Of a stretch of DNA of 32,054 nt, positions 1-17,058 are shown in pieces (the stretch's first letter is position 1; every line of letters begins with the position of its first letter). Both the position numbers and the translations under genes were made by a program. Below the pieces are notes generated by a model that was not told where the DNA came from, did not search any database, and was given only the letters and a program-made list of their open reading frames with translations. The DNA comes from Sulfurospirillaceae bacterium (lineage in GTDB: Bacteria > Campylobacterota > Campylobacteria > Campylobacterales > Sulfurospirillaceae): the NCBI GenBank assembly GCA_028692875.1, contig JAQUWL010000022.1, forward strand, positions 1 through 32,054, written 5' to 3'.

Positions 1-2305
1 CTTCTGGTGCATCAATCTCATAAGCAATACCTTCTTCTTCGCCTTCTACAACTCCATAGAATGTATGAGTGTCGTTAGCGTCATCATCTTCAACGCTAAG
101 TGTTCCTTCGTAAGTTGTATAAACATCACCATCTTCGCCATTGCTTCTGGTTTCATAAACAACAGTTTCACCACTTCCATATACTAAACGTATAGCTAAG
201 TCTTGGTGATCATATAAACTATTAGCCCACCAAATTCCATCGCCATCACCTTCAATACCACTTACTGTAACATCGCCTAGCAAAGAACCTGCATCTATAT
301 AACTAACTTTATATTGCTGACCTTGTACTAAGTCGACATTCAAATTAGCTGAAACAATGTTTTGACCAACTCCAGTTACAGTAACTGTATCACTTGTAAA
401 AAGAACAACATCGCCAGACATGTCAGTGATTTGAACTCTAAAGCTACCAGTATCGCCATCTTGTATATTGACATCTATTTGACTTAAGTGTGTCTCGGTC
501 GCAGTAAATATCTGTACTTGATCCCACAACCCATAGGAATAACTAACTTGGTTAATAGCATCTAGTCCAACCACCTCGCCATCGCCATTTCCATTTACAT
601 TCACATCGCTCACAACTGGTTGGTCGTTTGTGCCTGTGATAGTCACGGTAATCGTTTTTGGCTCACTTACAGAGCTTTCATGGATACCATCCGTTCCGTC
701 AAATCCATGTCCATCATCTGCGACATATTGGAATGTAACTGTTGAAGTCTCGCCAGCAGCAAGCTCTGTAAAGTTGCCCTCTATTCTATAATTCCATGTT
801 CCTTCTTCTTCATAGACTGACACTTGGATATCATCTGTATCTATACCGGCACCTGAGTCATCTGTGATTTGCAAAGTGTCTTCAACAACACTAAATGTAT
901 GTGTATCGCTCTCATCAAGGTCTGTTACTAACAACGCACCTGTGAAAATATTGTGTCCATCATTGTCAAGAGGCGATGATTCGCCACTATCGTGGGTTTC
1001 GTAGATAACAGTTACATTTGAATCATGAATTGCTATAGGATGATTTGCATTGAAAGTTAGGGTAATTGTATTGTTGTAGCTAGGATTTATTCCACTAACA
1101 GCTTCTTCCACACTCATATAATAATTGCCGACTGCAGCAATGTATTCTCCCGGCTCTAATGTTAAGCTAAGATATGAATTCAACCACCCACCACTGTCAT
1201 CATTTGATGCTATTTGATCATCGGTTGATAAATTGCCATCATTTCTAAATACACGAAGATAAGCATCGCCAAGGCTACTTGCTCTTATTGAAACCGTTGT
1301 AGTTTCATAAATCGTGAAATTTGTATATCCAACTGAACCTTCACCGTCTGGTACAATAGCGTGAACTTCACTTAACTCTGTACCCGTTGTTGTATTACCA
1401 TTGCCATTGATATTAATATCCTCAACAACTGGTCTGTCGTTTGTGCCTGTGATAGTTATGGAGATTGTTGCGCGGTTGCTTATACTATTGTCTGCGCCTG
1501 AGTCATCTTTGATATCGTAAGTAAATGTAACAACTTGACTCTCGCCAACGGCAAGATAGTCAAAATCCGTACCGGGTTCAAAAACCAATTGTCCACCAAC
1601 TTGTGTGATATTTCCGGCTGTTACTAAAACGCCATCTCGTAGATAAGAAACGGTCGTATCAAAACTATTGATACTTAAAACGTCGCCATCCAGGTCATAA
1701 TCATTTGGAAGAACATTGATAGCAACACTATTGTTTTCATAAACAAACGCTTGTCCATTGCCAACTGCGTCACTAACCGCAACTGGAGCGTCATTTACAT
1801 CTATACTCTCATTTCCACCAAAAAGCCCACCGCCTATTGCTCCATCGCCAAAATCAAGCAATCCTGTATCGCCAAGAATGTTTTCGCTACCGCCTTGCAA
1901 GTATCTTGCTGCTCCGTATGCACCCATGCTTGGATTGCCACCTTCGCCCGCAGCAGTCTCTTCAAGATTTGTAACATCTTCGCCTCTTAAAAGTGCTTGC
2001 TGTATCTCTTCAGCTGTCTTTCCAGTAGTTGCATCTGCAACGGTTTGTTCAGCAACGATAGCCTCTTGTCCGAAACTCTCGCTTGCATAAACGCTTTTAT
2101 CTAAAAATACCCCTTCATTTCCGCCTATGGCTATCTCTTTTCCATCAGCCAAACCTACAACAACGCTAGAACCAGCACCTACCGTGCTTATAGTCTCATC
2201 AGCATTTACAACATCGCCAACTTTTAAAATCCTATCTTCGCCCTGAGCATTTCTGGCCATTACTAGACCACTTACACTCTTTATCATTCCAACGGAAACT
2301 GCCAT
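1..2305 (-). CDS. LapA-like giant adhesin, N-terminal part (partial)
   Basis: This is the N-terminal part (about 768 codons) of a very large secreted surface adhesin; the gene continues past the left edge. The ATG at 2305 has a strong ribosome site (AAGGAG, 6 bases upstream). Residues 1-75 look like the retention module of LapA-type adhesins, with an LKVGD motif and a following beta-rich stretch. A helical linker follows, and T117-A118-A119-G120 matches the LapG cleavage motif. The rest is tandem extracellular beta domains: a cadherin/Ig-like unit opening with DVNDAPVA, VCBS-type units ending in TGTND(R/Q)PVV, and two inserted beta-sandwich domains, the first resembling pre-peptidase C-terminal (PPC) domains. 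There is no Sec signal, as expected for type I secretion, whose signal is C-terminal and outside the window. Asp/Asn/Gly-rich repeats suggest Ca2+ binding. The exporter and LapD/LapG genes lie directly upstream on the same strand. Confidence 0.9.
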   Translation of the reverse strand, partial: MAVSVGMIKSVSGLVMARNAQGEDRILKVGDVVNADETISTVGAGSSVVVGLADGKEIAIGGNEGVFLDKSVYASESFGQEAIVAEQTVADATTGKTAEEIQQALLRGEDVTNLEETAAGEGGNPSMGAYGAARYLQGGSENILGDTGLLDFGDGAIGGGLFGGNESIDVNDAPVAVSDAVGNGQAFVYENNSVAINVLPNDYDLDGDVLSINSFDTTVSYLRDGVLVTAGNITQVGGQLVFEPGTDFDYLAVGESQVVTFTYDIKDDSGADNSISNRATISITITGTNDRPVVEDININGNGNTTTGTELSEVHAIVPDGEGSVGYTNFTIYETTTVSIRASSLGDAYLRVFRNDGNLSTDDQIASNDDSGGWLNSYLSLTLEPGEYIAAVGNYYMSVEEAVSGINPSYNNTITLTFNANHPIAIHDSNVTVIYETHDSGESSPLDNDGHNIFTGALLVTDLDESDTHTFSVVEDTLQITDDSGAGIDTDDIQVSVYEEEGTWNYRIEGNFTELAAGETSTVTFQYVADDGHGFDGTDGIHESSVSEPKTITVTITGTNDQPVVSDVNVNGNGDGEVVGLDAINQVSYSYGLWDQVQIFTATETHLSQIDVNIQDGDTGSFRVQITDMSGDVVLFTSDTVTVTGVGQNIVSANLNVDLVQGQQYKVSYIDAGSLLGDVTVSGIEGDGDGIWWANSLYDHQDLAIRLVYGSGETVVYETRSNGEDGDVYTTYEGTLSVEDDDANDTHTFYGVVEGEEEGIAYEIDAPE

Positions 2306-2361
2306 AGCAAACTCCTTGTTTGTATTTTAAGAAGATACTAACTGATTTAAAAAAGTTAAGC

Positions 2362-2381
2362 TATTGTCCTAAGGTACAATA
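2362..2381. promoter_or_regulatory. Inverted repeat upstream of the adhesin gene, possible LuxR-type operator
   Basis: A 20-base imperfect inverted repeat with matching TATTGT and ACAATA outer arms lies in the 89-base gap between the LuxR gene and the adhesin start. The centre reads CCTAAGG. On the coding strand this gives TACC and TAGG half-sites of the kind bound by NarL/LuxR-type helix-turn-helix proteins. It sits about 57 bases before the adhesin ATG, so it could overlap a promoter. That the neighbouring LuxR protein binds here is inference. Confidence 0.4.
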
Positions 2382-2394
2382 AATATTTAGCTGA

Positions 2395-3006
2395 TTATAG
2401 ATGTAGTGCTAAAGAGAGTCTGTCCTTGATGCCTGTTTTTTCAAAGATAGAACTTAGATGAGCTTTAACGGTTCGTTCAGAAATACCCGTCCTTAGGGCT
2501 ATTTCTTTATTGCTAAGACCTTTTTTAAGAAGTAAAGCTATCTGAATTTCACGCTCAGAAAGCTTTTTTAACAAATCCGTACAGTTGTTTTGAGGGATAT
2601 TTGAAGATGAAGAAAATGCACAAATCATAATCTGAATAAACTCAGGATAGAGCCAAACATTACCATTTGTAACAGCTTCAAAAGCGTCCTTAAGGTGTGT
2701 ATGTGACATGTAGGTATTTGCATAGGTTTTAATACCAAATTTTAGCAAACCATACCCCTCTTCAAAACTCGGCTTGTTTGAAAAAAGCATAATCTTTACA
2801 GATGGAAAATCTTTTTGCAAAAGAGACAAAAACTCCTCAATATTAGGATATTGTCTTTTTTCCATCAAAACTATCGCATCTTCTCCACTCTGTTCCAAAA
2901 CATCATAAAAACTATTTTCATCTTCACAAACAGCAACATTTTTTCCACTAAAAGCACCGCTCCAATGTTTTAACACTTCTGCTTTTGACGAATATAGTAT
3001 TGTCAT
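2395..3006 (-). CDS. LuxR-family regulator with degenerate receiver domain
   Basis: A 203-residue protein with an N-terminal receiver-like fold (about 1-120) and a C-terminal LuxR/NarL helix-turn-helix (about 148-203, with LSEREIQIALLL and the GLSNKEIA/RTVKAHL pattern). It should bind DNA and control transcription. The receiver appears non-phosphorylatable: the acidic pair after the first strand is Ser-Ser (residues 6-7), and the usual phospho-acceptor Asp at the end of the third strand is Glu (E49 in IVLME). The protein may therefore be constitutively active, ligand-controlled or regulated by abundance. It is the last gene of the adhesin export operon (1-base gap after the HlyD-like gene) and directly precedes the adhesin gene, its likely target. 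The HTH call is firm; the target is inferred. Confidence 0.9.
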   Translation of the reverse strand: MTILYSSKAEVLKHWSGAFSGKNVAVCEDENSFYDVLEQSGEDAIVLMEKRQYPNIEEFLSLLQKDFPSVKIMLFSNKPSFEEGYGLLKFGIKTYANTYMSHTHLKDAFEAVTNGNVWLYPEFIQIMICAFSSSSNIPQNNCTDLLKKLSEREIQIALLLKKGLSNKEIALRTGISERTVKAHLSSIFEKTGIKDRLSLALHL

Positions 3007-3007
3007 T

Positions 3008-4339
3008 TTATCTCTCTCTTAAGGCATTTTGCTTGGCTTTTAAAATAGGCTTCAAAAGATAGTCAAGCACTGTTTTTTTACCAGTTAATATATCAACCGA
3101 TACTGTCATTCCAACCATTATATTAAGAGGTTTCTCAGGAGTTCCTAGGTAGTTTTTATCTGTCTTGATATGCACCAAATAGTAACTCTCTCCTTTGTCA
3201 TTCGTGAGTGTATCGGCACTAATAAGAGTCAAAATCCCCTTGAGTCCACCGTGAATCGCAAAATCATACGCCGTAAATTTTACCATCGCCTCTAGCCCAG
3301 GTCTAAGATATGCTACATCTGAGGGCTTTACTTTCGCCTCAACAAGCAGAGTATCTTCCGCTGGCACTATCTCCAAAATATCCATTCCTGGCTTGACAAC
3401 TCCAGATACGGTATTGACAAGTAGCTGTTTGACTGTACCATCCATTGGTGCTCGCACTAAAGTTCTTCTAACTCTATCCTCTAGGCTAGTTTGAGTTTCG
3501 TGGAGTCTTGACATCTCAGCTACGGCTTCATTTAGCTCTTTTTTTGCTCTATTTTTAAAGTTTAGTCTTGCTTCGCTTATCTTTTTGTAAACTTCCTCTT
3601 TTGTTGATTGTATTCTCGGTATGGATAGTCTTGCACCTTGCAGTTCCCCTTTGATGTTATTAGCTTGACGCTCCAACTGTAAAAATTCAACCTCAGACAC
3701 AAGCCCTTTATCTTTTAAAGGCTCCATAATTTTTTTCTCTTTGGTTACTAAATCGTAGCTTTCTTGAAGTCTTGCTACTTTTGTTTCAAGCTCTGTTAGC
3801 TCATTTTGTCGTTGTGCAAGTTGCTCTTGAAGTATCTGTATAGTTTTGCTGATCTGCTCTTTATTTGAGTTGTAAAAACTTTTTTCATAAACGATCTGTT
3901 TTTTCATATCAATATCAGCATCATTTGGAACTTCGAAAGGTTTGTCATTCGCCTCAGCCTCAAGCCTTAAAGACTTTGCCTTTAGCTCAATAAATCTTAG
4001 TTTACTCTCTCCAAAAGAGCTTGCAAAATTTTTATCATCTATTTTGAGTAATATTTGTCCCTTTTTAACAAAATCCCCCTCTTTAACCAAAATCTCCGAA
4101 ACAATACCACCCTCTAAATTTTGAACAACTTGAAGTTGCTGAGAAGGGATAATTTTTCCCTCTCCTCTTGTTATCTCATCTATTTCGGCAATACTTGACC
4201 AATATATCAACCAACCAACCGCAATAGCAATCAGCCAAATCAGCTTACTTGAAGCACTCGGAGCTTTTTGCAAAATAGCTTCACTTAAGCTCGACATATA
4301 TTCATAGTCTTGTTCGTCATAATGATTTTTTTTGCTCAT
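3008..4339 (-). CDS. Type I secretion membrane fusion protein, HlyD/LapC-like
   Basis: This periplasmic adaptor (443 residues) links the ABC exporter in the inner membrane to the TolC-like outer-membrane channel. It has a short cytoplasmic N-terminus, one membrane segment at about 32-48, then a biotinyl-lipoyl-like half motif (VVQNLEGGIVSEILVKEGD, about 70-88). A long coiled-coil hairpin (about 155-290) and the second lipoyl half with the beta-barrel region (PMDGTVKQLLVNTVSGVVKP) follow. Length and order are standard for the HlyD family. It lies 3 bases after the exporter gene and 1 base before the LuxR gene, so it is co-transcribed with them. The family call is secure. The specific partnership with the adjacent adhesin follows from gene order. 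Confidence 0.95.
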   Translation of the reverse strand: MSKKNHYDEQDYEYMSSLSEAILQKAPSASSKLIWLIAIAVGWLIYWSSIAEIDEITRGEGKIIPSQQLQVVQNLEGGIVSEILVKEGDFVKKGQILLKIDDKNFASSFGESKLRFIELKAKSLRLEAEANDKPFEVPNDADIDMKKQIVYEKSFYNSNKEQISKTIQILQEQLAQRQNELTELETKVARLQESYDLVTKEKKIMEPLKDKGLVSEVEFLQLERQANNIKGELQGARLSIPRIQSTKEEVYKKISEARLNFKNRAKKELNEAVAEMSRLHETQTSLEDRVRRTLVRAPMDGTVKQLLVNTVSGVVKPGMDILEIVPAEDTLLVEAKVKPSDVAYLRPGLEAMVKFTAYDFAIHGGLKGILTLISADTLTNDKGESYYLVHIKTDKNYLGTPEKPLNIMVGMTVSVDILTGKKTVLDYLLKPILKAKQNALRER

Positions 4340-4342
4340 TGA

Positions 4343-6499
4343 CTATCTCGCACCGTTTAATTTTGTCAAAACTTCTTCCTTTTTTCCATCCAAAACAACA
4401 CGTGCATTATCAAGCACGATAAGCCTATCGACCATCTCCAACAACAACATTTTATGCGTAATCAAAATCATCGTTTTATCAGCAATGTTTTCCTTAAGCA
4501 GGTTTTTGATTTTATATTCTGATGTGCTATCCAAAGAGTTTGTCGGCTCATCCAAAAGAACTATAGGCGAATCCAGCAAAAATGCCCTTGCTATGGCTAT
4601 GCCTTGTCTTTGTCCACCAGATATGCCATCTCCTCGCTCCAAAACAGGCAAGTCACAACCCAAAGGATGTTTGTCCACCAAGTCATCTACTCCACCTATT
4701 TTTATGGCTCTCAAAATCGCCTCATCATCCACATAAGGTGCCTTATAGACGATGTTTTCACGCACGGTTGCATTGAAAAGCATAACATCTTGAGAAACAT
4801 AGCCTATATTTTTTCGCAAATCCACAGGATCAACCTGATTTATATCGATACCATCAATCAAAACCGAACCACTCGTGGGTGCATATAGTCCCAAAATCAG
4901 CTTCTCAATAGTAGTTTTTCCAGAACCATTGCGTCCCAAAATACCCACTTTTTCGCCTGCACATATCTTAAAAGAGACATCTTCTAGAGCATTTTGTGTA
5001 GCACCCGGATAGGCAAAAGAGACATTTTTAAACTCTATATTGCCCATAAATTTTTCTCTACGAATAAACTTTTTACCCTCTGGTCGCTCCACTGGAAGTT
5101 TCATAATATCATTGATGGCTTTATAGGCGGTTTTAGTCTGTTCAAAACTAGAAACCAATGCTGCCACTTGCCCCATAGGTGCAATAGCCCTTGAGGATAA
5201 GATGATAGAGGCGATAAGCCCTCCCATTGTAAGCTCCATATTTTTTATCATATAGACGCCCAGTATGATAACAAATACCGTATCAAGCTGAACCAAAAAT
5301 GAGGTAACAGTTCCGATTGAGTTAGATAGGATTTTTGATTTTAGGCTTCTATTTGCAATCTCGCCTGTCGCCTCTTCCCATTTCCATTGTGCATGACCGC
5401 CTGCCGAGAGAGTTTTGATAGTCTCCAAAGCATTAAGGCTTTCAATCAAAATACCATTTTTGGCAGCACTTGCAGCATAAGTGCTTTCAATGCTTTTTTG
5501 CAAAGGACTCTTTATGGAAAAAGTATAAAGTAGTATAACAAGCATTAAAACCATAGGCACAAAAACCAAATAACCAGCTATAAAGTAAACGGTCAAAAGA
5601 AAAATAATTGCAAAAGGCAGGTCTATAATCGCAGCAATCGTAGAGGAGGTAAAAAAATTTCGAACAGACTCAAAATCTCTCAAATTGCTCGCAAAAGAGC
5701 CAACCGACCTAGGACGTGATGCCATAGTCAAGTCCATAACTTTTTCAAAAATCATAGACGACATGATAACATCGCTCTTTTTTCCAGCTATTTCCAAAAA
5801 GTAAGAGCGTGTAAATTTGAGCAAAATATCAATACCAAAAACCACTGTAACACCCAACGCAAGAACCCAGAGTGTCTCTATTGCATTATTTGGAATAACT
5901 CTATCGTAGACATTCATCGTAAACAAAGGACTTGCGAGAACAAAAAAATTCACAACCAAAGACGCCATAATAACGTCAAAATATATTTTTTTAGATTTTG
6001 CAAGAGTTCCCCAAAACCAATGCTCATCACCTTTGCTAAGTAGGTTTTCTCGCTCTTCTTGTGGCGTAAACTCTTTTTTAAGCAAAAAACAAAAACCTAG
6101 ATACTCTTCTTCCAATTGAGCGATATCCACCCAATTTTCACCCTCTTGCATATCTGGATGGATGATTTTGGCTTTTTTTGACGAATAATCAAAACCCAAA
6201 AGTATACATGCTGATTGATTTTTCAAGATTAAAATGCAAGGCAAAATCAAAGGCGAAAGCTCTTTAAGTTTTTTTTGAAACAGCTTACTAACAAAACCTG
6301 CTCTTTTTGCAGCTCTTGAAAAAAGAGACTTTCCATTGCCTTTTGGCGAAAAAAGCTCCACAGAAGTAAAACCTTTCTCCACAGGAAGTCCAGCAGTCAA
6401 TGCCTCTGCGCTATACGGAGTGTTATAGAGCTTTGTAAAAATAACCAAACACGACAAAAGCGGATCTTGCTTGGTCTCATTTATAATATCAGAAGTCAT
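4343..6499 (-). CDS. Type I secretion ABC exporter with C39-like domain, LapB-like
   Basis: An inner-membrane exporter of about 718 residues that should drive adhesin secretion. It begins with a C39 peptidase-like domain (about 1-145). In that domain the catalytic Cys position is Pro (DPLLSCL motif near residue 13), so it should bind substrate without cleaving it, as in HlyB and LapB. Membrane segments occupy about 165-450. The ATPase follows: Walker A GRNGSGKT (about 522-529), signature ISGGQRQG (about 626-633), Walker B IVLLDEPT (about 646-653) and the H-loop ITHK. I prefer the ATG at 6499 to the TTG at 6502, because AGGATAATTG gives proper spacing and the gene then starts 3 bases after the lapD-like stop. 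The lack of a protease active site fits a large RTX/VCBS adhesin substrate without a double-Gly leader. Confidence 0.95.
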   Translation of the reverse strand: MTSDIINETKQDPLLSCLVIFTKLYNTPYSAEALTAGLPVEKGFTSVELFSPKGNGKSLFSRAAKRAGFVSKLFQKKLKELSPLILPCILILKNQSACILLGFDYSSKKAKIIHPDMQEGENWVDIAQLEEEYLGFCFLLKKEFTPQEERENLLSKGDEHWFWGTLAKSKKIYFDVIMASLVVNFFVLASPLFTMNVYDRVIPNNAIETLWVLALGVTVVFGIDILLKFTRSYFLEIAGKKSDVIMSSMIFEKVMDLTMASRPRSVGSFASNLRDFESVRNFFTSSTIAAIIDLPFAIIFLLTVYFIAGYLVFVPMVLMLVILLYTFSIKSPLQKSIESTYAASAAKNGILIESLNALETIKTLSAGGHAQWKWEEATGEIANRSLKSKILSNSIGTVTSFLVQLDTVFVIILGVYMIKNMELTMGGLIASIILSSRAIAPMGQVAALVSSFEQTKTAYKAINDIMKLPVERPEGKKFIRREKFMGNIEFKNVSFAYPGATQNALEDVSFKICAGEKVGILGRNGSGKTTIEKLILGLYAPTSGSVLIDGIDINQVDPVDLRKNIGYVSQDVMLFNATVRENIVYKAPYVDDEAILRAIKIGGVDDLVDKHPLGCDLPVLERGDGISGGQRQGIAIARAFLLDSPIVLLDEPTNSLDSTSEYKIKNLLKENIADKTMILITHKMLLLEMVDRLIVLDNARVVLDGKKEEVLTKLNGAR

Positions 6500-6502
6500 C
6501 AA

Positions 6503-8464
6503 TTATCCTATTATTTTGGGTTGACCAACGAAACTGCCTTGGATATATTTAATACCCATTTTTTGCAATTTCTCTTTTTGTGTAGCATCTTCAACATTTG
6601 ATGCTATCACTTTTATATCCATACTATCGGTAATGATGCTTAGCGACCTTCTTGGCGAATCCAAATCGTTTTCGCCACCAAACAAATCAAGCAAATAAGA
6701 GGCTTGAATCTTAACATATGATGGATTTATCTTTTGCAACAAAAGAAGATTTTCGTCATTGACCGAAAAATTATCCAACCCCAATCCATAACCAAAGTTT
6801 TTGAGAAATTTTGAAAACCTCTCTAGTGTCTCAGTTGAAATAGTTGAACCATTAACCTCAAAATAGAGTGTCTGCTCACCTGTTTTTTTGAAACGTGCTA
6901 TTGTATCCTCAAGCCACGCCCAATCGTTACTTTGCATAAATATCTCTTTGCCCAAGTTAATACAAACCCCTTTACATGTAAAGATTTTAGATAGAGTCGC
7001 TTCAATAGTTTGGACAATAACATAGCGATCCATTTGGGAGCCCATCTTTAACTCCATAACGATAGGCATAAAATAGCCAGCATTGTGCAAATGACCACTA
7101 TAATCCTCTAGTCTTACAAAAATCTCGCTATGAAATTCGTCTGAAAAATCGTTGATGTTGACTACATTTTGATATGCCAACTTAAATCTTTTTTGCTCAA
7201 TTGCACTATGCAGTTCTTGTGCCCACGCCTCTTTTCCTAAAAGCACTTGTGTATCGCCTTTTGGCTCCACAAAACAGTTTATGCTAAATGCTCCTCTGGC
7301 TTTTGAGGTCGTTAGTGCAAAGTCTGCTTTTGAAAATAGCTCTTTCGGAGTCGATTTGGCATAATAGTTTGCATATCCTATATTGATAAAGTACTCTTTT
7401 TCATCTACCCCAAACCTATTGGTCAACTCTTTAGCGGACTTGTTAATAGCTTCACACAAACTCACAAATGACTCTTGTGCGGTCGCTGGTGCCAAAATGG
7501 CAAAATCCGTATCGCTCAACTTAGCACTCACATACTCAATGTTTGGCTCGATGGAGGCATTGATAAATGACGCCATCTCTTTAATAAAAGCCTCACTTTG
7601 TTGATATCCAAGTTTTGATTTTAGCCCCTCAAAATTGTTTAGTGAAATCAAAATCAAAGCCCCTTGTGCATTCTTCTCCTCACTAAGCAGGTACTCTTGC
7701 AACTTAATATTGAAATAGCGACGATTGTACATTTTGGTCACAGTATCTTGATATAAAAGCTCATGGTATTTTTGTACAGCATCAGCCTCTTTTTCAAAAA
7801 TCTCCTTGACTTTTTTTACCATACTATTCATCGCAAACACAACATTTTTAAGCTCTTTGGTAAAAGGGATATCGTGCTGGAAGATAAAATAGTTCTCCAA
7901 AATCGCTTCGGCTTGTTCCTTGACACGCACCAAAGGTTTTAAAATCAATCCTATAAGAAGTTGCAAAATAAAAAATCCAACAATAGAAACAACCACAAAA
8001 ACAGACAAAACCTCTTTAAAAATAGTCCAAAGTTGCCTATAGGCATGACCACTGTTTATCTGGACACTTAAAATTCCGTAAGGAGTCCATCCGAGCATTA
8101 TTTGAGAAGTTGCCACAGGCACAGAAAGTTTTACATAATCAATAAACCATTGTGGTACGTCTGCAAGAAGAACCCTTTGCTCTTTGACTACAAGCAGTTT
8201 TTTATTCATATCTTCAAGTAAAATTTTCTCATAATATCCGCTATCAAACACGGAATTTATCATTGTCTCTGTCGTTGATACATCATCAAACGAGGCAACA
8301 GAGCTGATAGAAAGCCCCAAAGAGTTTGCCGTATGCAAAGCATCGGTATAGGCTTGTTGTTTGATATACTCGTTTGAACTGTTAAAGTTAAACCACATAA
8401 CGCCACCAAAAATAATTGTCTGAAAAATAGACAATACAATAACGATTTGCTTAAACAGTGTCAT
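6503..8464 (-). CDS. lapD: LapD-like c-di-GMP receptor with degenerate GGDEF and EAL domains
   Basis: A 653-residue inner-membrane protein with LapD architecture. Transmembrane segment 1 is at about 7-27 and a periplasmic LapD/MoxY-type domain spans about 28-150. Transmembrane segment 2 is at about 153-175, followed by a HAMP helix (about 175-225), a GGDEF-like domain (about 235-400) and an EAL-like domain (about 410-650). Both catalytic domains look dead: the GGDEF position reads SDTDF (about 317-321), the EAL signature is EIF (447-449), and the usual DDFG is DNFS. The periplasmic loop LGWTPYGILSV contains W126, matching the Trp that P. fluorescens LapD uses to grip LapG (W125 there). Expected role: c-di-GMP binding to the EAL-like domain makes the periplasmic domain sequester LapG. 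It overlaps the lapG-like gene by ATGA, indicating coupled translation. Confidence 0.93.
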   Translation of the reverse strand: MTLFKQIVIVLSIFQTIIFGGVMWFNFNSSNEYIKQQAYTDALHTANSLGLSISSVASFDDVSTTETMINSVFDSGYYEKILLEDMNKKLLVVKEQRVLLADVPQWFIDYVKLSVPVATSQIMLGWTPYGILSVQINSGHAYRQLWTIFKEVLSVFVVVSIVGFFILQLLIGLILKPLVRVKEQAEAILENYFIFQHDIPFTKELKNVVFAMNSMVKKVKEIFEKEADAVQKYHELLYQDTVTKMYNRRYFNIKLQEYLLSEEKNAQGALILISLNNFEGLKSKLGYQQSEAFIKEMASFINASIEPNIEYVSAKLSDTDFAILAPATAQESFVSLCEAINKSAKELTNRFGVDEKEYFINIGYANYYAKSTPKELFSKADFALTTSKARGAFSINCFVEPKGDTQVLLGKEAWAQELHSAIEQKRFKLAYQNVVNINDFSDEFHSEIFVRLEDYSGHLHNAGYFMPIVMELKMGSQMDRYVIVQTIEATLSKIFTCKGVCINLGKEIFMQSNDWAWLEDTIARFKKTGEQTLYFEVNGSTISTETLERFSKFLKNFGYGLGLDNFSVNDENLLLLQKINPSYVKIQASYLLDLFGGENDLDSPRRSLSIITDSMDIKVIASNVEDATQKEKLQKMGIKYIQGSFVGQPKIIG

Positions 8465-9102
8465 AAATCTTCTCTCCTAATTTTATCTACCAGCTCTAGC
8501 CATTTTTTATTTTTTTGCATGCCTGATGGCACTATCTGACCTAAACCTTGTTGTTTTGCAAGATACAAAGCATCACCATTAAAACTGTAAACTGGAGCTA
8601 AATCGTTTCTTTGCGTTGCTGGCAAAATCTTTGTATTGATGTTATCTAAAACCAAAGGCACAGACGTTGGCGTCTCATAATATGTTAAAACCATATGTGC
8701 TTGTTGTAACTTTATAGCTTTAACATACGTAAAAAAAAGTTTTTCACTTGGAATACCCAACTGCTTTAAGGTAAAATATTTGGCAATCACAAAATCCTCA
8801 CAATCCCCCGCCCCTTTGCCTATAAACTCAATACGAGTAGCCCAATAATCGTTTTGACCCCACAACTTAATATCTGGCACAAACTGCATTTGGTTAAAAA
8901 AAGAGTTTACTTTTTCAAGCTTTTCTAGGGTATTTAAAGATACCATGGAAACCATAAGCGTATTTAGAGCCTCCAAACGACGCTTTGCATAATCTCCATA
9001 TTGAAATCTAACCTTATCAATAATTATTTGTGTAAAAAAAGTAGGATTAGCATTTAAAGTCAAAATAGCAAGCAACAAGAGTATAGAGAAAACTTTATTC
9101 AT
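8461..9102 (-). CDS. lapG: LapG-like periplasmic cysteine protease
   Basis: A bacterial transglutaminase-like cysteine peptidase of 213 residues with an N-terminal signal peptide (about 1-19, ending LNANP). The catalytic triad is readable: C101 in GAGDCEDF, H136 in QQAHMVLTYY and D153 in LVLDNIN. Acidic residues E102 and D103 next to the Cys match the Ca2+-binding neighbourhood described for LapG enzymes. Its expected substrate is the adhesin encoded downstream, which has a TAAG motif at residues 117-120. LapG normally cleaves between the two alanines, releasing the adhesin from the cell surface. It overlaps the lapD-like start by 4 bases. Length and motifs are typical of the family. Substrate assignment rests on the motif and gene neighbourhood. 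Confidence 0.95.
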   Translation of the reverse strand: MNKVFSILLLLAILTLNANPTFFTQIIIDKVRFQYGDYAKRRLEALNTLMVSMVSLNTLEKLEKVNSFFNQMQFVPDIKLWGQNDYWATRIEFIGKGAGDCEDFVIAKYFTLKQLGIPSEKLFFTYVKAIKLQQAHMVLTYYETPTSVPLVLDNINTKILPATQRNDLAPVYSFNGDALYLAKQQGLGQIVPSGMQKNKKWLELVDKIRREDL

Positions 9103-9195: not shown

Positions 9196-10545
9196 TTACT
9201 TTTGTGCCTCCACCAAAGGTGTTAAAACATCTTTATGTGAGCACATTTGAATGCGATATGTTTTTGCGAAATCAGGTTGAAAATAGTCGGTTAAAACACC
9301 CATATTGTCAAGCAATCTATACTTTGCATATTCATGTGCTGATTTGGCTTCCGCCAAAGCTTGTCTTGCAGAATAGTACTCACCCTCTGCATCCAAAAGA
9401 TTTATCAAATCCCGTCTTCCAATGGCAAATTCTTGTTGATACGAATCCAAAGTCTCTTTGCTGTATTTTTTATGCTCTTCTAATAGCACTATGCGCTCTT
9501 TGGTAGCCTCATAATTTTCCCATGAAAATTTAACACTCTCTTGAAGATCCCTTTTTATATTTGCCAAAGTCTCTTTTTCTCGCAATACAAGTACAGCATA
9601 TTTTTCTTTATCAAGACTGTCTGCCCCTTTATTGTATAAGTTATATTTGAACTTCAACAAAGCTGATGCACTCTCCTGTTTTCCATCGGTTCCAGAAAAA
9701 TCTCTTCCAACAGTTCCTGCTATCTCAATATCAACTTTTGGATAAAAAGCTGCACTGCTACCATCATACATAGCGTCTGCATATCGAATATTTGCCTCTT
9801 GAACCCTTACCGAAGGGTTACATGTAAAGCTACTGTCTTTAACTTTGCTAAAATTGTCAGGGAGAGAAAACTTGAAAATAGGATGTGTTAAATCGCTAGC
9901 TTCAACCCTAGCTCCGTACACTTTTTCAAAAGTAGAAATTGCGTCTCGATAGTTATTTTGCTGGGCTATATAGTTTGATTTTGAAAGTGTTAGCCTGCTT
10001 CCCGCCTGTTGCGTCTCAGATAGTCGCCCAAACCCTGAATCTGAACGCTCTTTGATCTGTTTAAAAATAGCTTCGTGTGTTTTAACATTCTCTTCAGAAA
10101 GTTCTAGAAGTTCTTTTTGCTTCAACAGACCCAAATATGCACTAGTAAGTGCCAAAAGTGTCCTATCTGCTTTTTCAGCAACACTAAAAGCTGAAGCATT
10201 TAATCTGCCTTCTTGTTGTTTTATAATATTTTCCGTAGCATAACCATTGAAAATATTTTGTGTCAAAACCAACGAAGTCTCTTCTCGTGCTGATGAGAGT
10301 TTTTCTTGGTTCGTAGCTGGACTTTTTACACTCTCGGCTCCATATGAGCCAATTAAGTCTAAAGTCGGATAATAACCATTTTCAGCAATGTTATACTCTT
10401 TTTTAACACTGTTATAATTTTCGACCGATTCTTTAATTTTTGGATGAGCTGAGAGAATAGACTTAGCACTCTCTTCAAGCGTCAAAGAAAAAACAAAAGA
10501 TGGCAACAATACCAAGCACACAAATAAAAACCTAAAAGCTCCCAT
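9196..10545 (-). CDS. TolC-family outer-membrane protein (LapE-like)
   Basis: A 449-residue outer-membrane efflux/secretion channel with a clear signal peptide (residues 1-20, MGAFRFLFVC start, cleavage after FVFS). Two long alpha-helical repeat halves, each rich in Ala/Glu/Leu heptads, fit the periplasmic tunnel of the OEP/TolC fold. The GRRDLINLLDAEGEYYSARQ stretch near residue 380 is the typical second-repeat signature. It is the first gene of the minus-strand operon leading to lapG, lapD, the ABC exporter and HlyD, so it is probably the outer-membrane component of the adhesin secretion machine. In LapA-type systems the retention module stays lodged in this pore. A TATAAT box lies about 57 bases upstream. 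Confidence 0.93.
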   Translation of the reverse strand: MGAFRFLFVCLVLLPSFVFSLTLEESAKSILSAHPKIKESVENYNSVKKEYNIAENGYYPTLDLIGSYGAESVKSPATNQEKLSSAREETSLVLTQNIFNGYATENIIKQQEGRLNASAFSVAEKADRTLLALTSAYLGLLKQKELLELSEENVKTHEAIFKQIKERSDSGFGRLSETQQAGSRLTLSKSNYIAQQNNYRDAISTFEKVYGARVEASDLTHPIFKFSLPDNFSKVKDSSFTCNPSVRVQEANIRYADAMYDGSSAAFYPKVDIEIAGTVGRDFSGTDGKQESASALLKFKYNLYNKGADSLDKEKYAVLVLREKETLANIKRDLQESVKFSWENYEATKERIVLLEEHKKYSKETLDSYQQEFAIGRRDLINLLDAEGEYYSARQALAEAKSAHEYAKYRLLDNMGVLTDYFQPDFAKTYRIQMCSHKDVLTPLVEAQK

Positions 10546-10601
10546 TTTTCCATCTCCATGTGTAGCTACAAAATCTTTTTAGCAAACCTTAATGCGGACT
10601 T

Positions 10602-10607
10602 ATTATA
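10602..10607 (-). promoter_or_regulatory. Likely -10 box for the adhesin-export operon
   Basis: TATAAT on the minus strand inside TGATATAATAAG, about 57 bases before the TolC-like ATG. As often in Campylobacterota, there is no clear -35 hexamer, only AT-rich DNA upstream. It is the best promoter candidate for the whole tolC-lapG-lapD-ABC-HlyD-luxR operon. Confidence 0.55.
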
Positions 10608-10769
10608 TCACAATAGTTGCTATTTAAAAGATTTATAGTTTACCTTTTATAATAAAAATAATAACAATGTAACAATTCTGGTATTTTTGCCTTCTATCAA
10701 AACAGATTTTCTGGCAAAACTAAAACATAGTTTTATTTTTTTGTTCAACTTATTTTAATATTATTTAAC

Positions 10770-10775
10770 TATAAT
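10770..10775 (+). promoter_or_regulatory. Likely -10 box for the RNA helicase gene
   Basis: A perfect TATAAT in the plus-strand context AACTATAATGCG, preceded by very AT-rich DNA. Transcription would start near 10782, giving an untranslated leader of about 210 bases before the helicase ATG, much longer than for other genes here. Confidence 0.6.
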
Positions 10776-10820
10776 GCGTCCAATTCCAAAACTTCTTAGA
10801 TGGACTTCAACCAAAACCTA

Positions 10821-10953
10821 CCAGATTTGAGCAACGACTCAGTGAGTATGTAGGTTTTTACATACGATTTTGAAGAGTTGCTATTTGCTTAAAAACTCAA
10901 AAATTTTATATGTAGTAAAGCTTTGCTTTACGAAAGTGTTTCATTAAACACTT
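10821..10953 (+). promoter_or_regulatory. Structured 5' leader of the DEAD-box helicase mRNA
   Basis: Three perfect hairpins follow each other between the TATAAT box and the helicase start. GTATGTA (10846-10852) pairs with TACATAC (10859-10865) and is enclosed by AGCAAC (10830-10835) with GTTGCT (10877-10882). GTAAAGC (10915-10921) pairs with GCTTTAC (10925-10931) over a 3-base loop. AAGTGTTT (10934-10941) pairs with AAACACTT (10946-10953) over a 4-base loop. ACTC (837-840 in the 10 kb line) could also pair with GAGT in the outer arm, so alternative folds are possible. DEAD-box helicase mRNAs of other bacteria have long leaders used in cold induction and self-control. A similar role here is inference. 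The rest of the 10546-10990 gap holds only the two promoters. Confidence 0.55.
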
Positions 10954-10990
10954 GTAATTCTTTTCATTTTGTTTTGGAAAAATAAAACAT

Positions 10991-12634
10991 ATGGAAAAAT
11001 ATATGCAAAATCAAACATTTGAATCCTTTGGATTACACCCAGACATCCTTAAAGCTGTCATAGAAGCAGGCTTTAAGGAACCAAGCCCCGTACAAGCCGA
11101 GGCAATCCCTTTAGTTTTAGCAGGTAACGATATCGTCGCACAAGCACAAACAGGTACAGGCAAAACTGCTGCTTTTGGTCTTTCAACTATGAGTATGATA
11201 GAGCCAAATCAAAATCGCGTCCAAATCCTCGTCATCACGCCAACAAGAGAACTTGCCACTCAAGTAAGTGACGAGCTATATTCACTCGGCCGTTTTCGTG
11301 GAGTAAAAACTGTTACTATTTATGGTGGAAGCTCTTATTCAAGACAGATTGGGCTTATCGAAAAAGGTGCGAGCGTTATCGTGGCAACTCCAGGCCGTAT
11401 GCTTGACCTTCTTAAAAATGACCGTCTTGGCAAATTCGCCCCAAGCATTATCGTACTTGACGAGGCTGACGAGATGTTAGATATGGGATTTTTGGAAGAT
11501 ATCGAAGAGATTTTTACTTACCTTCCAAAAGAGCGTCAAACACTTCTTTTCTCAGCAACGATGCCTGACCCCATCAAAAGACTTGCGAGCAAAATCCTAA
11601 ATGATCCAAAATTTGTAAGTGTTACTCCAAAAGACCACACAACAAATGAAGATATCGAGCAACAATACTACGTCATAAATGAATACGAAAGAGACCATGC
11701 GATGATACGTCTTTTGGATGCTCTTGAGCCTGAAAAATCCATCGTATTTTGTCGTACAAAAAAAGAGGTCGATAGACTTTCAACTCAACTTATGGCAGTT
11801 GGCTACACCGCAAAAGGCTTACATGGCGATATGGAGCAAAATCAACGTGAAAGCGTTATCAAGGCGTTTCGTGGCTCACAAATCGAGATTTTAGTTGCAA
11901 CAGACGTTGCTGCACGAGGACTAAATGTTGCGGACATCTCTCACGTTTTCAACTACCATATGCCATTTGACCCAGAAAGCTATGTTCACCGTATCGGTAG
12001 AACTGGACGTGCTGGCAAAAAAGGTATCGCCATTACTCTTGTAACACCTATGGAGTTTCACTCAATGCAGAGAATCGGCAAAAAAGTCGGCTCTAAGATT
12101 GAGCACAAAATCGTTCCAAGTCTTAGCGATGTAAAAGAAAACAAATTGACCAAAATGGCGGATGACATCAGAAGTGCAGAACTAAACGAAAGTGCTGTGA
12201 AACTTCTTGCCATCCTCGAAGAAGATATGGATATCGCACAAATCGCTTTAAAATTGCTTTCAAATCTTTTAAAAGAGAACACTCCTGTTGGTCCAAACAA
12301 GATAGGCTTAGATAAAAAAACATTAGAATCAGTTGTTCGAGGCATCGAAGAGCGTGATGGAAACAGAAGTCGTGGCGGATACCGTGGAAACAGTGGTGGT
12401 GGAAGTCGTGGCGGATACAGAGGAAACTCTCCAAGAGAAGGCGGAAATAGAGATGACCGTCCAAGAACTGATAGCAGACCTCCTCGTGATGCTGGAGCAC
12501 GTGATAGCAGACCTCCAAGAGGCGATGCAAGAGGCCCAAGAGGAGACTTTAAACCAAGCTCTTCCCCAAGTGGCGATGGCAGACGCGCCCCTAGAAATAG
12601 CAGTGGTCGTGGCAATAGCGAGGGAAGACGCTAG
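10991..12634 (+). CDS. deaD: DEAD-box ATP-dependent RNA helicase with RGG-rich tail, DeaD/CsdA-like
   Basis: A 547-residue RNA helicase. Domain 1 shows the Q motif (TFESFGLHPD...SPVQAEAIP, about 9-41), Walker A AQTGTGKTA (about 53-61), the DEAD box VLDEADEMLDMGF and SAT. Domain 2 shows ATDVAARGL and HRIGRTGRAG. A helical segment (about 375-445) resembles the dimerisation region of CsdA/DeaD. In place of the DbpA-type RNA-binding domain, the last 100 residues are a low-complexity Arg/Gly/Ser/Pro tail with SRGGYRGN repeats, likely disordered and RNA-binding. It should remodel structured RNA in ribosome assembly, cold adaptation or mRNA decay. The start is uncertain: the ATG at 11003 has GGAAAAATAT just upstream and may be the real one. 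It is a single-gene unit ending in a strong terminator. Confidence 0.93.
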   Translation: MEKYMQNQTFESFGLHPDILKAVIEAGFKEPSPVQAEAIPLVLAGNDIVAQAQTGTGKTAAFGLSTMSMIEPNQNRVQILVITPTRELATQVSDELYSLGRFRGVKTVTIYGGSSYSRQIGLIEKGASVIVATPGRMLDLLKNDRLGKFAPSIIVLDEADEMLDMGFLEDIEEIFTYLPKERQTLLFSATMPDPIKRLASKILNDPKFVSVTPKDHTTNEDIEQQYYVINEYERDHAMIRLLDALEPEKSIVFCRTKKEVDRLSTQLMAVGYTAKGLHGDMEQNQRESVIKAFRGSQIEILVATDVAARGLNVADISHVFNYHMPFDPESYVHRIGRTGRAGKKGIAITLVTPMEFHSMQRIGKKVGSKIEHKIVPSLSDVKENKLTKMADDIRSAELNESAVKLLAILEEDMDIAQIALKLLSNLLKENTPVGPNKIGLDKKTLESVVRGIEERDGNRSRGGYRGNSGGGSRGGYRGNSPREGGNRDDRPRTDSRPPRDAGARDSRPPRGDARGPRGDFKPSSSPSGDGRRAPRNSSGRGNSEGRR

Positions 12635-12638
12635 TCAT

Positions 12639-12675
12639 AAACCTAGTGGCGTAAGATTTTTACGCCACTAGGTTT
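12639..12675. terminator. Bidirectional terminator between convergent genes
   Basis: A perfect 16-base-pair stem (AAACCTAGTGGCGTAA at 12639-12654 with its complement at 12660-12675) and a 5-base loop. T-rich ends on both strands suit termination of the helicase from the left and the minus-strand polyamine operon from the right. Confidence 0.9.
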
Positions 12676-12688
12676 TAAAAGACTATCT

Positions 12689-13945
12689 CTATCTCGCAGT
12701 AAGTGTCTTTGCCAAAGCCCTTTGTATACGCTCATATTGCTTGTCGATAGGATGTCCACTTTTTTCAGCCACCGCCAAAAGCCCTTTGTTTTCGGCGTAT
12801 TTTTTCTCCCAAACATAGATCTCTTTTTTTTTGTTTTCCAAAGCCATTTCCGCATCTTTGAGACTTTTAAGAAGTTTTGTTTTCTCTGATATCGCCTCAT
12901 CTTCTTTTTTGTAAATCTTCGCCAATAACTCTTTTCGCTGGTACGATTTTTCTTGCCCATCTTCCACAAACACCACTTCGTTAGCATCGGTATCTTGAAG
13001 TTTGTCAAGGATTTTGTGAATATTGGCTATTTTTGCCTCCGCACCATGAATCAATTTATTGCCTTCCTTTATCTGTTTTTTTAACTCTTGCTCGTTAATC
13101 TTATAAAGCTCTAGCTTTTTACCTATCGAAATAAGTGCGTTTTTTTTATCATAAATAGCCTGTTTAGCTCTTTTATGCTGAATCATGGTTGAGCGAATAG
13201 TAGTCATATTCCATGCGTAACTGCTCTCATCCAAAATCGGATTTGCCTTATAACGCTCCCCGTCTACACCAACACTTCCGTAAACACTAAAATAACTCAA
13301 AAACTCAAATGCTTTTTTGTCTTGATTTGAGAAGTGAAAAAGTATATTACCTGCTATAAACAGCATCAGCTCATCAAACATATCACGCAATAGATAATAA
13401 CTAAGCCCCTTAATGCTACGCAAATCTTTCAAGCTGGTATCTTCCATCACAACAATTTCAAATATATTGACTAAAACAGAGAGATATATTTTTTTAAACT
13501 CTATCGGATTGATTTTGCGAAAACTCAAATTATCGTCTATAACATAGCGAAGGAGCGCCAAAACATCCTCTTTATATGAATCATTGGCAAAAAATGTTTG
13601 CTTATGTTCCTTAAGAAGCTCTAAAGGCAAACCACACCCTCTTCTCTCTGCACAATCAGCTGGTAGCTCTATTTGGAAATATACCTTTCCGTAAACTCCA
13701 CCATCAATAAATAAGATAAGATCATTCTCCTCAAAGCCTAGTTTCGCAAAAAATTTATCTCGCAAAAAATCTTTATAAGAGCTGTATGTTTTAGGGAGTT
13801 TGCACTCACGCAACAACAAAATGCTATCTTGAAAAATCTCATCAGGGAAAAAGTACAATACGTCATTTATCTTGTAGCTTTGAGCATCGAAAGTAGCCAA
13901 CAATGCATCCAATTTTTTTTCAATCTCTCTCAAATGTTCATCCAT
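12689..13945 (-). CDS. Uncharacterised protein with C-terminal coiled coil, in the polyamine operon
   Basis: I do not recognise this 418-residue protein. It has no signal peptide and no convincing membrane segment, so it is probably cytoplasmic. Residues 1-240 are a mixed alpha/beta region with hydrophobic stretches (ENDLILFIDGGVYGKVYF near 75-92, ELMLFIAGNILFHF near 195-208) and two close cysteines (C98 and C103 in ADCAERRGCG). Residues about 255-400 are Lys/Glu-rich heptads predicting a long coiled coil with a break near a DTDANEVVFVEDGQE hairpin. It starts 18 bases after the carboxynorspermidine decarboxylase stop, so it is likely co-transcribed with the polyamine genes. It may be lineage-specific. 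I assign no function. Confidence 0.8.
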   Translation of the reverse strand: MDEHLREIEKKLDALLATFDAQSYKINDVLYFFPDEIFQDSILLLRECKLPKTYSSYKDFLRDKFFAKLGFEENDLILFIDGGVYGKVYFQIELPADCAERRGCGLPLELLKEHKQTFFANDSYKEDVLALLRYVIDDNLSFRKINPIEFKKIYLSVLVNIFEIVVMEDTSLKDLRSIKGLSYYLLRDMFDELMLFIAGNILFHFSNQDKKAFEFLSYFSVYGSVGVDGERYKANPILDESSYAWNMTTIRSTMIQHKRAKQAIYDKKNALISIGKKLELYKINEQELKKQIKEGNKLIHGAEAKIANIHKILDKLQDTDANEVVFVEDGQEKSYQRKELLAKIYKKEDEAISEKTKLLKSLKDAEMALENKKKEIYVWEKKYAENKGLLAVAEKSGHPIDKQYERIQRALAKTLTAR

Positions 13946-13963
13946 AGTATTCCAATAAAATAG

Positions 13964-15109
13964 TTAATTTCGCCTTTTGTACTCATCATAGCCAAAATGA
14001 CTTGTCACTTCATAACTTCCATCTTTGCGTAAAACCGCTAAATCTGGAAGTTTCACACCATTAAAAGTGGTATTTTTAACGATAGTGTAGTGTATCATAT
14101 CTTCAAAAATCAGCTTATCGCCGATTTGTAAAGGGGCATCAAAACTGTAATCCCCCATAATATCTCCCGCCAAACACGTTGGACCTCCAAGGCGGTACAT
14201 GTAAGGTTTTTTACCAACATCTCCAGCCCCTCGAATAGTAGCTCGATAAGGCATCGCAAGAGTGTCAGGCATATGAGCTTCTGCGGAGATATCTAAAATG
14301 ACGATATCCATACCATTGTGAACTATGTCTAAGACACTCGCCACCAATGGCCCTGTTTGCCAACCCACCGCTTCACCAGGTTCCAAATAGACTTTTATAT
14401 TGTTATAACGTGCTCTAAAATCTTGAATCAAAGAAATAAGTTTTTCCACATCATAGCCCTCGCGAGTTATGTGATGCCCACCTCCAAAATTGACCCACTT
14501 CATTTTGGGTATCAGCTCGCCAAAACGCTCTTCAAAACCTTTTAAAACCTCTTCAAGAGCACTTGCATCTTGCTCACAAAGTGCGTGAAAATGAAGCCCC
14601 TCTATGCCTTCAAGTAGGTCGTATTGCATATTTTCTTTGGTAATGCCTAAGCGACTGTAAAGCCCACAAGGATTGTACAAATCCACAGGAGATGAGGAAA
14701 TTTCTGGGTTTACACGCAAGCCACAACTTGTTTTAAGGGTGGCTTTGGATTTATATTTTTGCCATTGATTAAAAGAGTTAAAGATAAGATGGTCGCTCAA
14801 AGCTATAACCTCATCTATATCTTCTTCTTTATAAGCTGGCGAATAGGTGTGAATCGTGCCTTTAAAATACTCATTTGCAAATTTTGCTTCATGCAAACCA
14901 CTACATGTACACCCACTTAGGTACTTATCCACCAAAGGTGCAAGTGCTTTAAAAGCAAAGCCTTTGAGTGCTAGAAGCATGGTTGCACCTGAACGCTTGG
15001 CTACTTCGTTTAACAGTTTTAGATTTTCCTCCAAAAGCCCTTCTTCACACACATAAACAGGTGTTTGTATCTTATCAAGCACATTTTGTATTTGACTGAT
15101 TTTATTCAC
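13964..15109 (-). CDS. nspC: Carboxy(nor)spermidine decarboxylase
   Basis: A PLP-dependent decarboxylase of the alanine racemase/ornithine decarboxylase fold, 381 residues, normal for the family. The PLP Lys is K49 in LLALKGFAFKAL. Other family features are LSGCTCSGLHEA, the glycine-rich KWVNFGGGHH phosphate-binding segment, LEPGEAVGW and the active-site GGPTCLAGD near the C-terminus. It converts carboxyspermidine or carboxynorspermidine to spermidine or norspermidine. In Campylobacter this branch makes spermidine from putrescine and aspartate semialdehyde, replacing the S-adenosylmethionine route, so spermidine is the likelier product. It follows its partner dehydrogenase gene by 33 bases. 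TACATGTA occurs twice inside it (14196, 14902). Confidence 0.95.
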   Translation of the reverse strand: MNKISQIQNVLDKIQTPVYVCEEGLLEENLKLLNEVAKRSGATMLLALKGFAFKALAPLVDKYLSGCTCSGLHEAKFANEYFKGTIHTYSPAYKEEDIDEVIALSDHLIFNSFNQWQKYKSKATLKTSCGLRVNPEISSSPVDLYNPCGLYSRLGITKENMQYDLLEGIEGLHFHALCEQDASALEEVLKGFEERFGELIPKMKWVNFGGGHHITREGYDVEKLISLIQDFRARYNNIKVYLEPGEAVGWQTGPLVASVLDIVHNGMDIVILDISAEAHMPDTLAMPYRATIRGAGDVGKKPYMYRLGGPTCLAGDIMGDYSFDAPLQIGDKLIFEDMIHYTIVKNTTFNGVKLPDLAVLRKDGSYEVTSHFGYDEYKRRN

Positions 15110-15142
15110 TAGTTTTCCTTAGCAATATGTGAAGTTAAAAAA

Positions 15143-16357: not shown

Positions 16358-16376
16358 TTTCATCCTTTTTTGTATC

Positions 16377-16382
16377 ATTATA
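16377..16382 (-). promoter_or_regulatory. -10 box for the polyamine operon
   Basis: TATAAT on the minus strand about 20 bases before the preferred ATG at 16357. It gives a short leader containing the AAGGA ribosome site. It lies in the 44-base gap between rdgB and the dehydrogenase gene. Confidence 0.6.
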
Positions 16383-16401
16383 ATAGTTAAAAATTACGTT
16401 T

Positions 16402-16992: not shown

Positions 16993-17058
16993 AACACTCC
17001 TTATGGTCTACATGTAGGATTTAATCGTCGATTTTATCTATTTTTTGTTTAAAAGTTC

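Follow-up and report, generated by a model that had tools for sequence, protein, structure and literature searches.

The window, that is, the whole stretch of 32,054 nt analysed here (contig JAQUWL010000022.1 of the Sulfurospirillaceae bacterium assembly GCA_028692875.1), carries on its minus strand a gene cluster in the order TolC, LapG, LapD, LssB, HlyD, regulator and adhesin. The first gene encodes a TolC-family outer-membrane channel (9196..10545; TIGR01844 above cut-off), and is followed by genes for a LapG-like periplasmic cysteine protease (8461..9102; PF06035 above cut-off, NF045674 below its cut-off) and a LapD-like c-di-GMP receptor (6503..8464; Pfam LapD_MoxY_N, PF16448, above cut-off, together with GGDEF and EAL domains). 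The NCBIfam LapG and LapD equivalog models were the best matches of these two proteins, yet below cut-off, and the GGDEF signature string is absent from the LapD-like protein. Next come an LssB/LapB-type permease/ATPase of a type I secretion system (T1SS) at 4343..6502 (TIGR03375 above cut-off) and a HlyD-family T1SS adaptor at 3008..4339 (TIGR01843 above cut-off), which lies 1 nt from the regulator gene at 2395..3006. The last gene, at 2..2305, is cut by the contig end and encodes the first 768 amino acids of a giant adhesin with a LapA retention module (NF033682, 72 bits against a cut-off of 50), Cadherin/Big repeats, and the residues TAAG at 117-120, a putative LapG-type site. The regulator is thus placed between exporter and adhesin, as the preliminary description of this DNA had it, with the exporter upstream and an adhesin bearing the LapA retention module downstream. 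No kinase was found in Pfam scans of the 18 window proteins.

The regulator gene (minus strand, ATG at 3006 and stop at 2395) encodes 203 amino acids that combine a pseudo-receiver with a LuxR/GerE helix-turn-helix, as judged from the open reading frame, the Pfam search, a structural model and a family of 73 members. GerE (PF00196) was the best Pfam match, at 56.4 bits (cut-off 23.5), and Response_reg (PF00072) was not found at E<=0.01, all Pfam matches being of the helix-turn-helix type. In an AlphaFold2 model built with 3 input sequences (mean pLDDT 82, pTM 0.58), a receiver fold is joined to the LuxR-type helix-turn-helix. The top VIA match of this model was the REC domain of RcsB (Z 16.6, 127 residues, rmsd 2.2), and its Foldseek list was headed by LiaR, VraR and VpsT. 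A PDB search with a profile of the REC portion returned five weak receiver matches, including DesR and LiaR/VraR (best E 4e-4), and VpsT was not among these five. From the model and the profile alignment, the receiver-like domain extends over about residues 1-115 (2662..3006), with S7, K8, E49, S76 and T98 at the five catalytic positions. It is followed by a linker motif, W118-L-Y-P-E-F123 (2638..2655), which stands where VpsT has its c-di-GMP motif and is without the Arg of that motif, and by a modelled helix at residues 121-134, on which position 128 is I, V or L in 68 of the 73 family members. The DNA-binding domain comprises residues 146-203 (2398..2571) on the evidence of Pfam, and its recognition helix includes R178, which covaries with operator positions 3 and 14 as described below.

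To place the catalytic positions, a profile of 33 family members was aligned to NarL and the alignment was read by hand. Column 49 of the profile falls on the Asp of the NarL segment LLLDLNMP, column 76 on a Ser, and column 98 on a Lys. In the window regulator the corresponding pocket consists of E49 (codon at 2860..2862) at the acceptor position, a retained S76, T98 in place of the Lys, and S7-K8 in place of the acidic pair, the last assignment being drawn from the family alignment and from where beta-1 ends in the model; four of the five canonical catalytic residues are absent by this alignment. The earlier claims that a Glu occupies the acceptor position and that the acidic pair is missing were therefore borne out, and the structure prediction agrees with them, since it gives a receiver fold in which E49 ends beta-3 (residues 45-49).

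The preliminary description also suggested that the Asp-to-Glu change mimics the active state. Were E49 a natural phosphomimic that locks the receiver on, the regulator would be constitutively active through this residue, and the location of E49 at the acceptor position, together with the retention of S76 and of the aromatic Y95 of the Y-T pair, is compatible with such a role. The family as a whole argues against it. The catalytic Lys is found at its column in 0 of 73 members, and the acceptor column across the 73 regulators, window included, is variable (D48 E9 N5 I4 H4 S2 A1); both acidic-pair positions are acidic in just 6/73 and the Ser/Thr site is retained in 30/73. On a quick tree computed with the acceptor column removed, E versus non-E at the acceptor accounts for 4 changes, among them a separate E in L056, and the D of L050, L052 and L053 is nested within the E clade; Glu was both gained and lost within one clade, and members with D and with E have gene order, box and spacing in common. 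In the related QstR, D58E and D58A are reported to leave activity unaltered, and the same paper reports likewise for VpsT, the phospho-site being dispensable in both (PMC6237807). A phosphomimetic role of E49 is accordingly very improbable, and the earlier suggestion was not upheld. The best reading of the alignment is that E49 is a neutral variant, arising by drift in a pocket already dead across the family, because the Lys is absent from 73/73 members, the acceptor is variable, and D is nested within the E clade.

Relatives of the regulator were sought in 44 genomes of the window's family (19 matching at the family threshold of E<=1e-12) and in 298 genomes of its order (59 matching at the order threshold of E<=1e-20). 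The 71 neighbourhoods fetched and the window make up 72 neighbourhoods, which hold the 73 regulators. A same-strand HlyD-like gene lies directly upstream of the regulator in 73/73 cases, at a distance within 50 nt in 60 and of 447-1067 nt in 13; homologues of LapD and of LapG occur in 34/72 neighbourhoods each. The association was also examined in reverse, and 22 of the 26 LssB matches above the curated cut-off in the 44 family genomes adjoin a regulator when matched by coordinates. Of the remaining four LssB loci, three lie on contigs that end before the place of the regulator and one (G033:C197) is without it. Below the LssB cut-off, the regulator was present at 0 of 7 sampled T1SS loci. Some loci depart from the common arrangement. 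In L064-L074 (family f11, genus g15) the regulator lies 447-680 nt after HlyD and, at several of the loci, is directly followed by a second LapG-like ORF. In L043 (G002:C59) and L061 (G022:C1) the LssB gene is split into two ORFs while the rest of the cluster is apparently intact; decay or sequencing error are both possible.

An imperfect inverted repeat, TTGTACCTTAGGACAA, lies between the regulator and adhesin genes (2364..2379, minus strand) and is proposed as an operator on the grounds of this position and of cross-genome conservation; one of its arms reads GGACAA. The consensus of the box across relatives, TTGTAC-N4-GTACAA, is an inverted repeat upstream of retention-module adhesin genes, and was first spotted by eye and scored afterwards. 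Within 400 nt downstream of the regulator, a site of 10/12 or better occurs at 25/73 loci, where dinucleotide shuffles predict 1.4, and one of 11/12 or better at 16/73, where they predict 0.05. Throughout the 72 neighbourhoods, 24 of the 25 sites scoring at least 11/12 precede a retention-module ORF, mostly at 56-63 nt; when positions 3 and 14 are left free, 29 of 58 adhesin-like ORFs score at least 9/10, compared with 0.95 in mononucleotide shuffles. The 845 remaining ORFs of these neighbourhoods served as a control: at the same distance, 12 of them reach 10/12 or more, and 8 of these 12 (in L092, L093, L094, L097, L099, L102, L107 and L113) have adhesin-like N-termini according to an iterated profile. 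Boxes also stand before an oppositely oriented adhesin (L057), before adhesins that lie kilobases away from the end of the regulator itself (L092, L097, L105 and L113), before second adhesins (L049 and L062) and, at sites fetched in addition, before adhesins on separate contigs (L164, L167 and L169). In L049 (around 9314-12955 and 13037-17731) the frame of the first adhesin is apparently broken near its start, and the second adhesin, which has its own box, is intact.

Within the window, one site is found at up to two mismatches against 1.59 expected by chance, so the loose pattern alone proves nothing there and the weight falls on cross-genome position. With regard to autoregulation, no box scoring at least 10/12 was found before any regulator, HlyD, LssB, LapD or LapG ORF; two TolC ORFs have an upstream site that reaches 10/12. 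A scan of the family with the pattern gave 37 rows, compared with 12 for the reversed control. A wider regulon in the regulator's own genome was considered and rejected, the sole other pattern match (C10:128502, two mismatches allowed) being inside a coding region, and non-adhesin targets were likewise discarded: of the 15 family matches fetched from outside the gap between regulator and adhesin, 10 are not followed by a retention-module ORF, as chance would give. Adhesin-linked boxes occur in 18 of the 19 family genomes that bear the regulator and in 0 of the 25 others, a co-distribution that is not independent evidence because the 25 genomes without the regulator are also without over-cut-off adhesins.

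The box is missing in the L058/L059 paralogues, in L085 and L103, and in the L064-L074 group, where neither a downstream box nor a retention-module adhesin was detected; it is weakened in G020 and G028:C21. L058 and L059 (G038:C9 and G035:C6) carry a paralogous regulator, with a different recognition helix (AESTVKVH and TEATIKVH respectively), before adhesins that have no box, and their upstream regions have in common a stretch resembling ACTAAAA[CT]GTG, perhaps the paralogue's own operator.

The distance from the box to the putative promoter is also constrained. In the window, the -10-like hexamer TAGTAT (2335..2340, minus strand) lies 23 nt after the operator, and a ribosome-binding-like AAGGAG (2312..2317, minus strand) stands before the adhesin ATG. 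Across relatives, the 51 sites scoring at least 8/10 show TA...T 23 nt downstream in 31 cases and 24 nt downstream in 12, or 43/51 together; other offsets give 0-7 of the 51, apart from offset 0, where the TA belongs to the tail of the box itself. These 51 sites were drawn from all 58 adhesin-like ORFs without hand-picking, and theirs is the figure to trust; in a hand-picked set of 40 sites with recognisable boxes, TA...T stands at 23 or 24 nt in 40/40. If the hexamer is taken as -12 to -7, the centre of the box would fall near -43.5 from a start deduced from sequence, and the dyad would overlap the -35 position at a fixed distance. The lux box has TGTA-N6-TACA geometry and is centred near -42.5, and class II LuxR-type activators contact RNA polymerase from about this position. 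The geometry here is the same as that of the class II lux box bound by LuxR, with a putative centre near -43.5; the window regulator differs from LuxR in that it has no autoinducer-binding domain, its sensory half being a pseudo-receiver.

Centred at about -43.5, the box extends over the -35 position and could stand in the way of polymerase; the regulator might then repress the adhesin gene from an operator over the -35 region and be removed when export is on. The 23- or 24-nt spacing seen in 43/51 sites would, however, be needed for activator contact and not for a repressor, no repressing signal is evident, and positive regulation of bapA is reported for the analogous proteins PprB and CsgD (PMC3510237). 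Repression is accordingly given a low probability, and activation is preferred on account of the fixed spacing and these two analogues. Taken together, the conserved inverted repeat, its fixed spacing to a -10-like hexamer and its recurrence before other adhesins give good support, from comparative sequence, to the earlier proposal that the regulator acts on adhesin transcription.

Covariation between the box and the recognition helix bears on which protein binds the box. Box scores were collected for 37 loci, with the best site taken per locus, and the covariation was assessed on the tree. G..C at box positions 3/14 is found at 32 of 35 sites that go with Arg178 and at 0 of 16 that go with another residue, several of these 16 sites being noise. 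The clean non-Arg cases are Val/Ile178 with TTATAC-N4-GTATAA in L093, L099, L107 and L108 (one end base changed) and Gln178 with TAATAC-N4-GTATTA in L110. Independent helix/box pairs number 2 on well-supported branches of the tree and 4 on all branches, which leaves significance out of reach; with 2 to 4 independent pairs, the covariation is suggestive and not proof that the regulator is the binder, and residue 178 is the probable specificity residue. The alternative is that the box belongs to another protein, a global regulator such as one of the FleQ or Crp kind, and that the LuxR-type gene is no more than a neighbour. This is in keeping with a box defined purely by conservation and position, and with boxes at second adhesins far from the LuxR-type gene. 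It fits poorly with the covariation of residue 178 of the LuxR-type protein, with the absence from the regulator's own genome of any further match outside a coding region at two mismatches, with the distribution of adhesin-linked boxes (18/19 versus 0/25 genomes, the latter also lacking over-cut-off adhesins), and with a TGTA-N6-TACA geometry that suits LuxR-type dimers. We regard another binder as quite improbable, and take the LuxR-type regulator to be the candidate binder of the box.

The preliminary description raised the further possibility that the regulator answers to c-di-GMP or another ligand, as VpsT does. VpsT is reported to bind c-di-GMP through a Lys and the motif W[F/L/M][T/S]R (PMC7288161), and R134A of VpsT to disrupt this binding (PMC3359988). 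The motif was found within residues 112-130 of 0/73 regulators, the window reading WLYP; an Arg at the fourth motif place likewise occurs in 0/73, and a Lys at the offset-matched column 107 in 3/73. VpsT-type binding is not expected, because the Arg is absent from that place and the motif from all 73 regulators, and a response in the VpsT manner is unlikely on these alignments; the c-di-GMP signal probably reaches the adhesin system through the LapD homologue. A more general version is that the pseudo-receiver senses a ligand or the redox state before box binding, either c-di-GMP or another molecule through a surface formed by Y95, N97, W118, Y120 and P121, or a disulfide at C27. Conservation of Y95 (70/73), N97 (67/73), W118 (70/73) and P121 (67/73) in the family alignment, far above that of the pocket, points in this direction, as do the well-conserved Y120, the use of c-di-GMP or Cys-mediated dimers by other pseudo-receiver proteins, and the LapD-type c-di-GMP receptor encoded in the same cluster. 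Against these points stand the 0/73 count for the VpsT motif and the fact that W-L-x-P-E is common in ordinary NarL-type linkers. C27 is present in just 17/73 regulators, and in the model it ends beta-2, outside the alpha1-beta2 loop. A sensing role of this kind is considered rather unlikely.

Dimers mediated by a Cys at DD+19 are described for the Campylobacterota pseudo-receivers Hp1021, Cj1608 and Abu0127 (PMC12632262). C27 of the window regulator (codon 2926-2928) lies at K8+19, and the 17 members that have it include most of the window's clade; its equivalence to the DD+19 Cys is uncertain because C27 ends beta-2 in the model.

The arrangement extends beyond Campylobacterota. In a plasmid collection, the best match to the window regulator was from Halomonas sp. 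PA16-9 (31% identity), the one among the 117 records listed for this query whose gene order was inspected. The order there reads TolC-LssB-HlyD-regulator, followed by a box, TTGTCCATCGGTACAA, which scores 11/12 and lies 23 nt from TAGGAT, and then by an adhesin with a retention-module-like start; the record shows broken frames for LssB and HlyD. The acceptor region of the Halomonas regulator, WLSTT, has no Asp or Glu, and the Lys place is without Lys. When this regulator was used as a query of the collection, the sole further match was on a 149-kb plasmid of Marinomonas algicola (L209, NZ_CP061942.1), which carries a complete Lap-type adhesin system with the regulator, in the order TolC-LptE-OmpA-LapG-EAL-ABC-HlyD-regulator and a divergent giant adhesin-like ORF. 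The candidate box there scores 9/12, a value reached by 350 of 2000 shuffles, so that chance could produce it. On the same plasmid, genes annotated as LptE and OmpA separate TolC from the LapG-like peptidase, and the cluster is flanked on both sides by mobile elements.

Several known systems resemble parts of this one. The window contains a retention-module adhesin, a LapG-like protease, a LapD-like receptor and an LssB-type exporter, and in this it matches the Lap system of Pseudomonas fluorescens (LapA-LapG-LapD-LapB/C/E); a dedicated LuxR-type regulator within the cluster does not figure in the portion of the source that describes the Pseudomonas system, and a title cited in PMC13090378 places Pseudomonas RTX adhesins under FleQ. 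VpsT of Vibrio cholerae and QstR likewise join a pseudo-receiver to a LuxR-type helix-turn-helix, VpsT being among the best structural matches. I128 corresponds to a hydrophobic dimer residue of VpsT on the post-receiver helix, if the alignment offset, set by hand, is right and the dimer is as predicted. The window family differs from VpsT in lacking W[F/L/M][T/S]R and in its proposed target, an adhesin rather than polysaccharide genes. CsgD governs curli and cellulose as a master regulator, and its gene lies outside the exporter cluster; the NCBIfam CsgD model matches residues 50-196 of the window regulator at E 1.1e-11, far below its cut-off. In Salmonella and E. coli, CsgD, likewise a LuxR-type helix-turn-helix with an atypical receiver, is reported to turn on bapA, which encodes a giant adhesin exported by a T1SS (PMC3510237). 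The window regulator, in contrast, lies within the exporter locus, and its box is found almost exclusively at adhesin genes. PprB of Pseudomonas aeruginosa, of the NarL/LuxR type, is reported in the same paper to bind the bap promoter region (bapABCD) and to be required for adhesin expression (PMC3510237). PprB, however, belongs to a classical two-component system with the kinase PprA, whereas the window receiver is without the catalytic residues and Pfam found no kinase among the 18 window proteins scanned.

The gene order, the pseudo-receiver state, the box, its spacing and distribution, and the helix/box covariation are properties of the sequences themselves. From them, we consider it likely that the regulator serves as an activator dedicated to LapA-type adhesin genes, independent of phosphorylation and produced alongside the exporter. 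It would be the final protein made from the exporter cluster, presumably co-transcribed with TolC, LapG, LapD, LssB and HlyD, would dimerise, and would bind TTGTAC-N4-GTACAA about 43.5 bp upstream of the putative adhesin start. A class II-type contact with RNA polymerase would then lead to transcription, rather than repression, of the adhesin gene. Adhesin transcription would be coupled to exporter expression, because the regulator is made together with the exporter, and gene order suggests that the exporter comes first and the adhesin second. LapD and LapG would subsequently govern retention of the secreted adhesin by c-di-GMP.

A broader proposal is put forward tentatively, as somewhat short of an even chance. 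A kinase-free family of LuxR-type regulators in two phyla (Campylobacterota and Gammaproteobacteria), each encoded last in its exporter cluster, may license transcription of giant adhesins solely while the matching type I exporter is made, acting both in cis and in trans by way of a single conserved adhesin box, and the pseudo-receiver may sense the state of the exporter or a ligand through Y95/N97/W118-Y120-P121. No recognisable description of a T1SS-linked LuxR-type regulator or of the adhesin box in Campylobacterota was found in the open-licence PMC literature, as far as the text of those sources could be consulted. The switching of pseudo-receivers between on and off has been called a mystery (PMC12632262), and the present family would make one directly testable, because a regulator, a probable operator, probable targets and a probable specificity residue come together in it. 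The family also predicts which genes of Campylobacterota are LapA-type adhesins controlled in common, some of them far from any exporter, and it would add control at the level of transcription to a system best known for adhesin retention governed by c-di-GMP.
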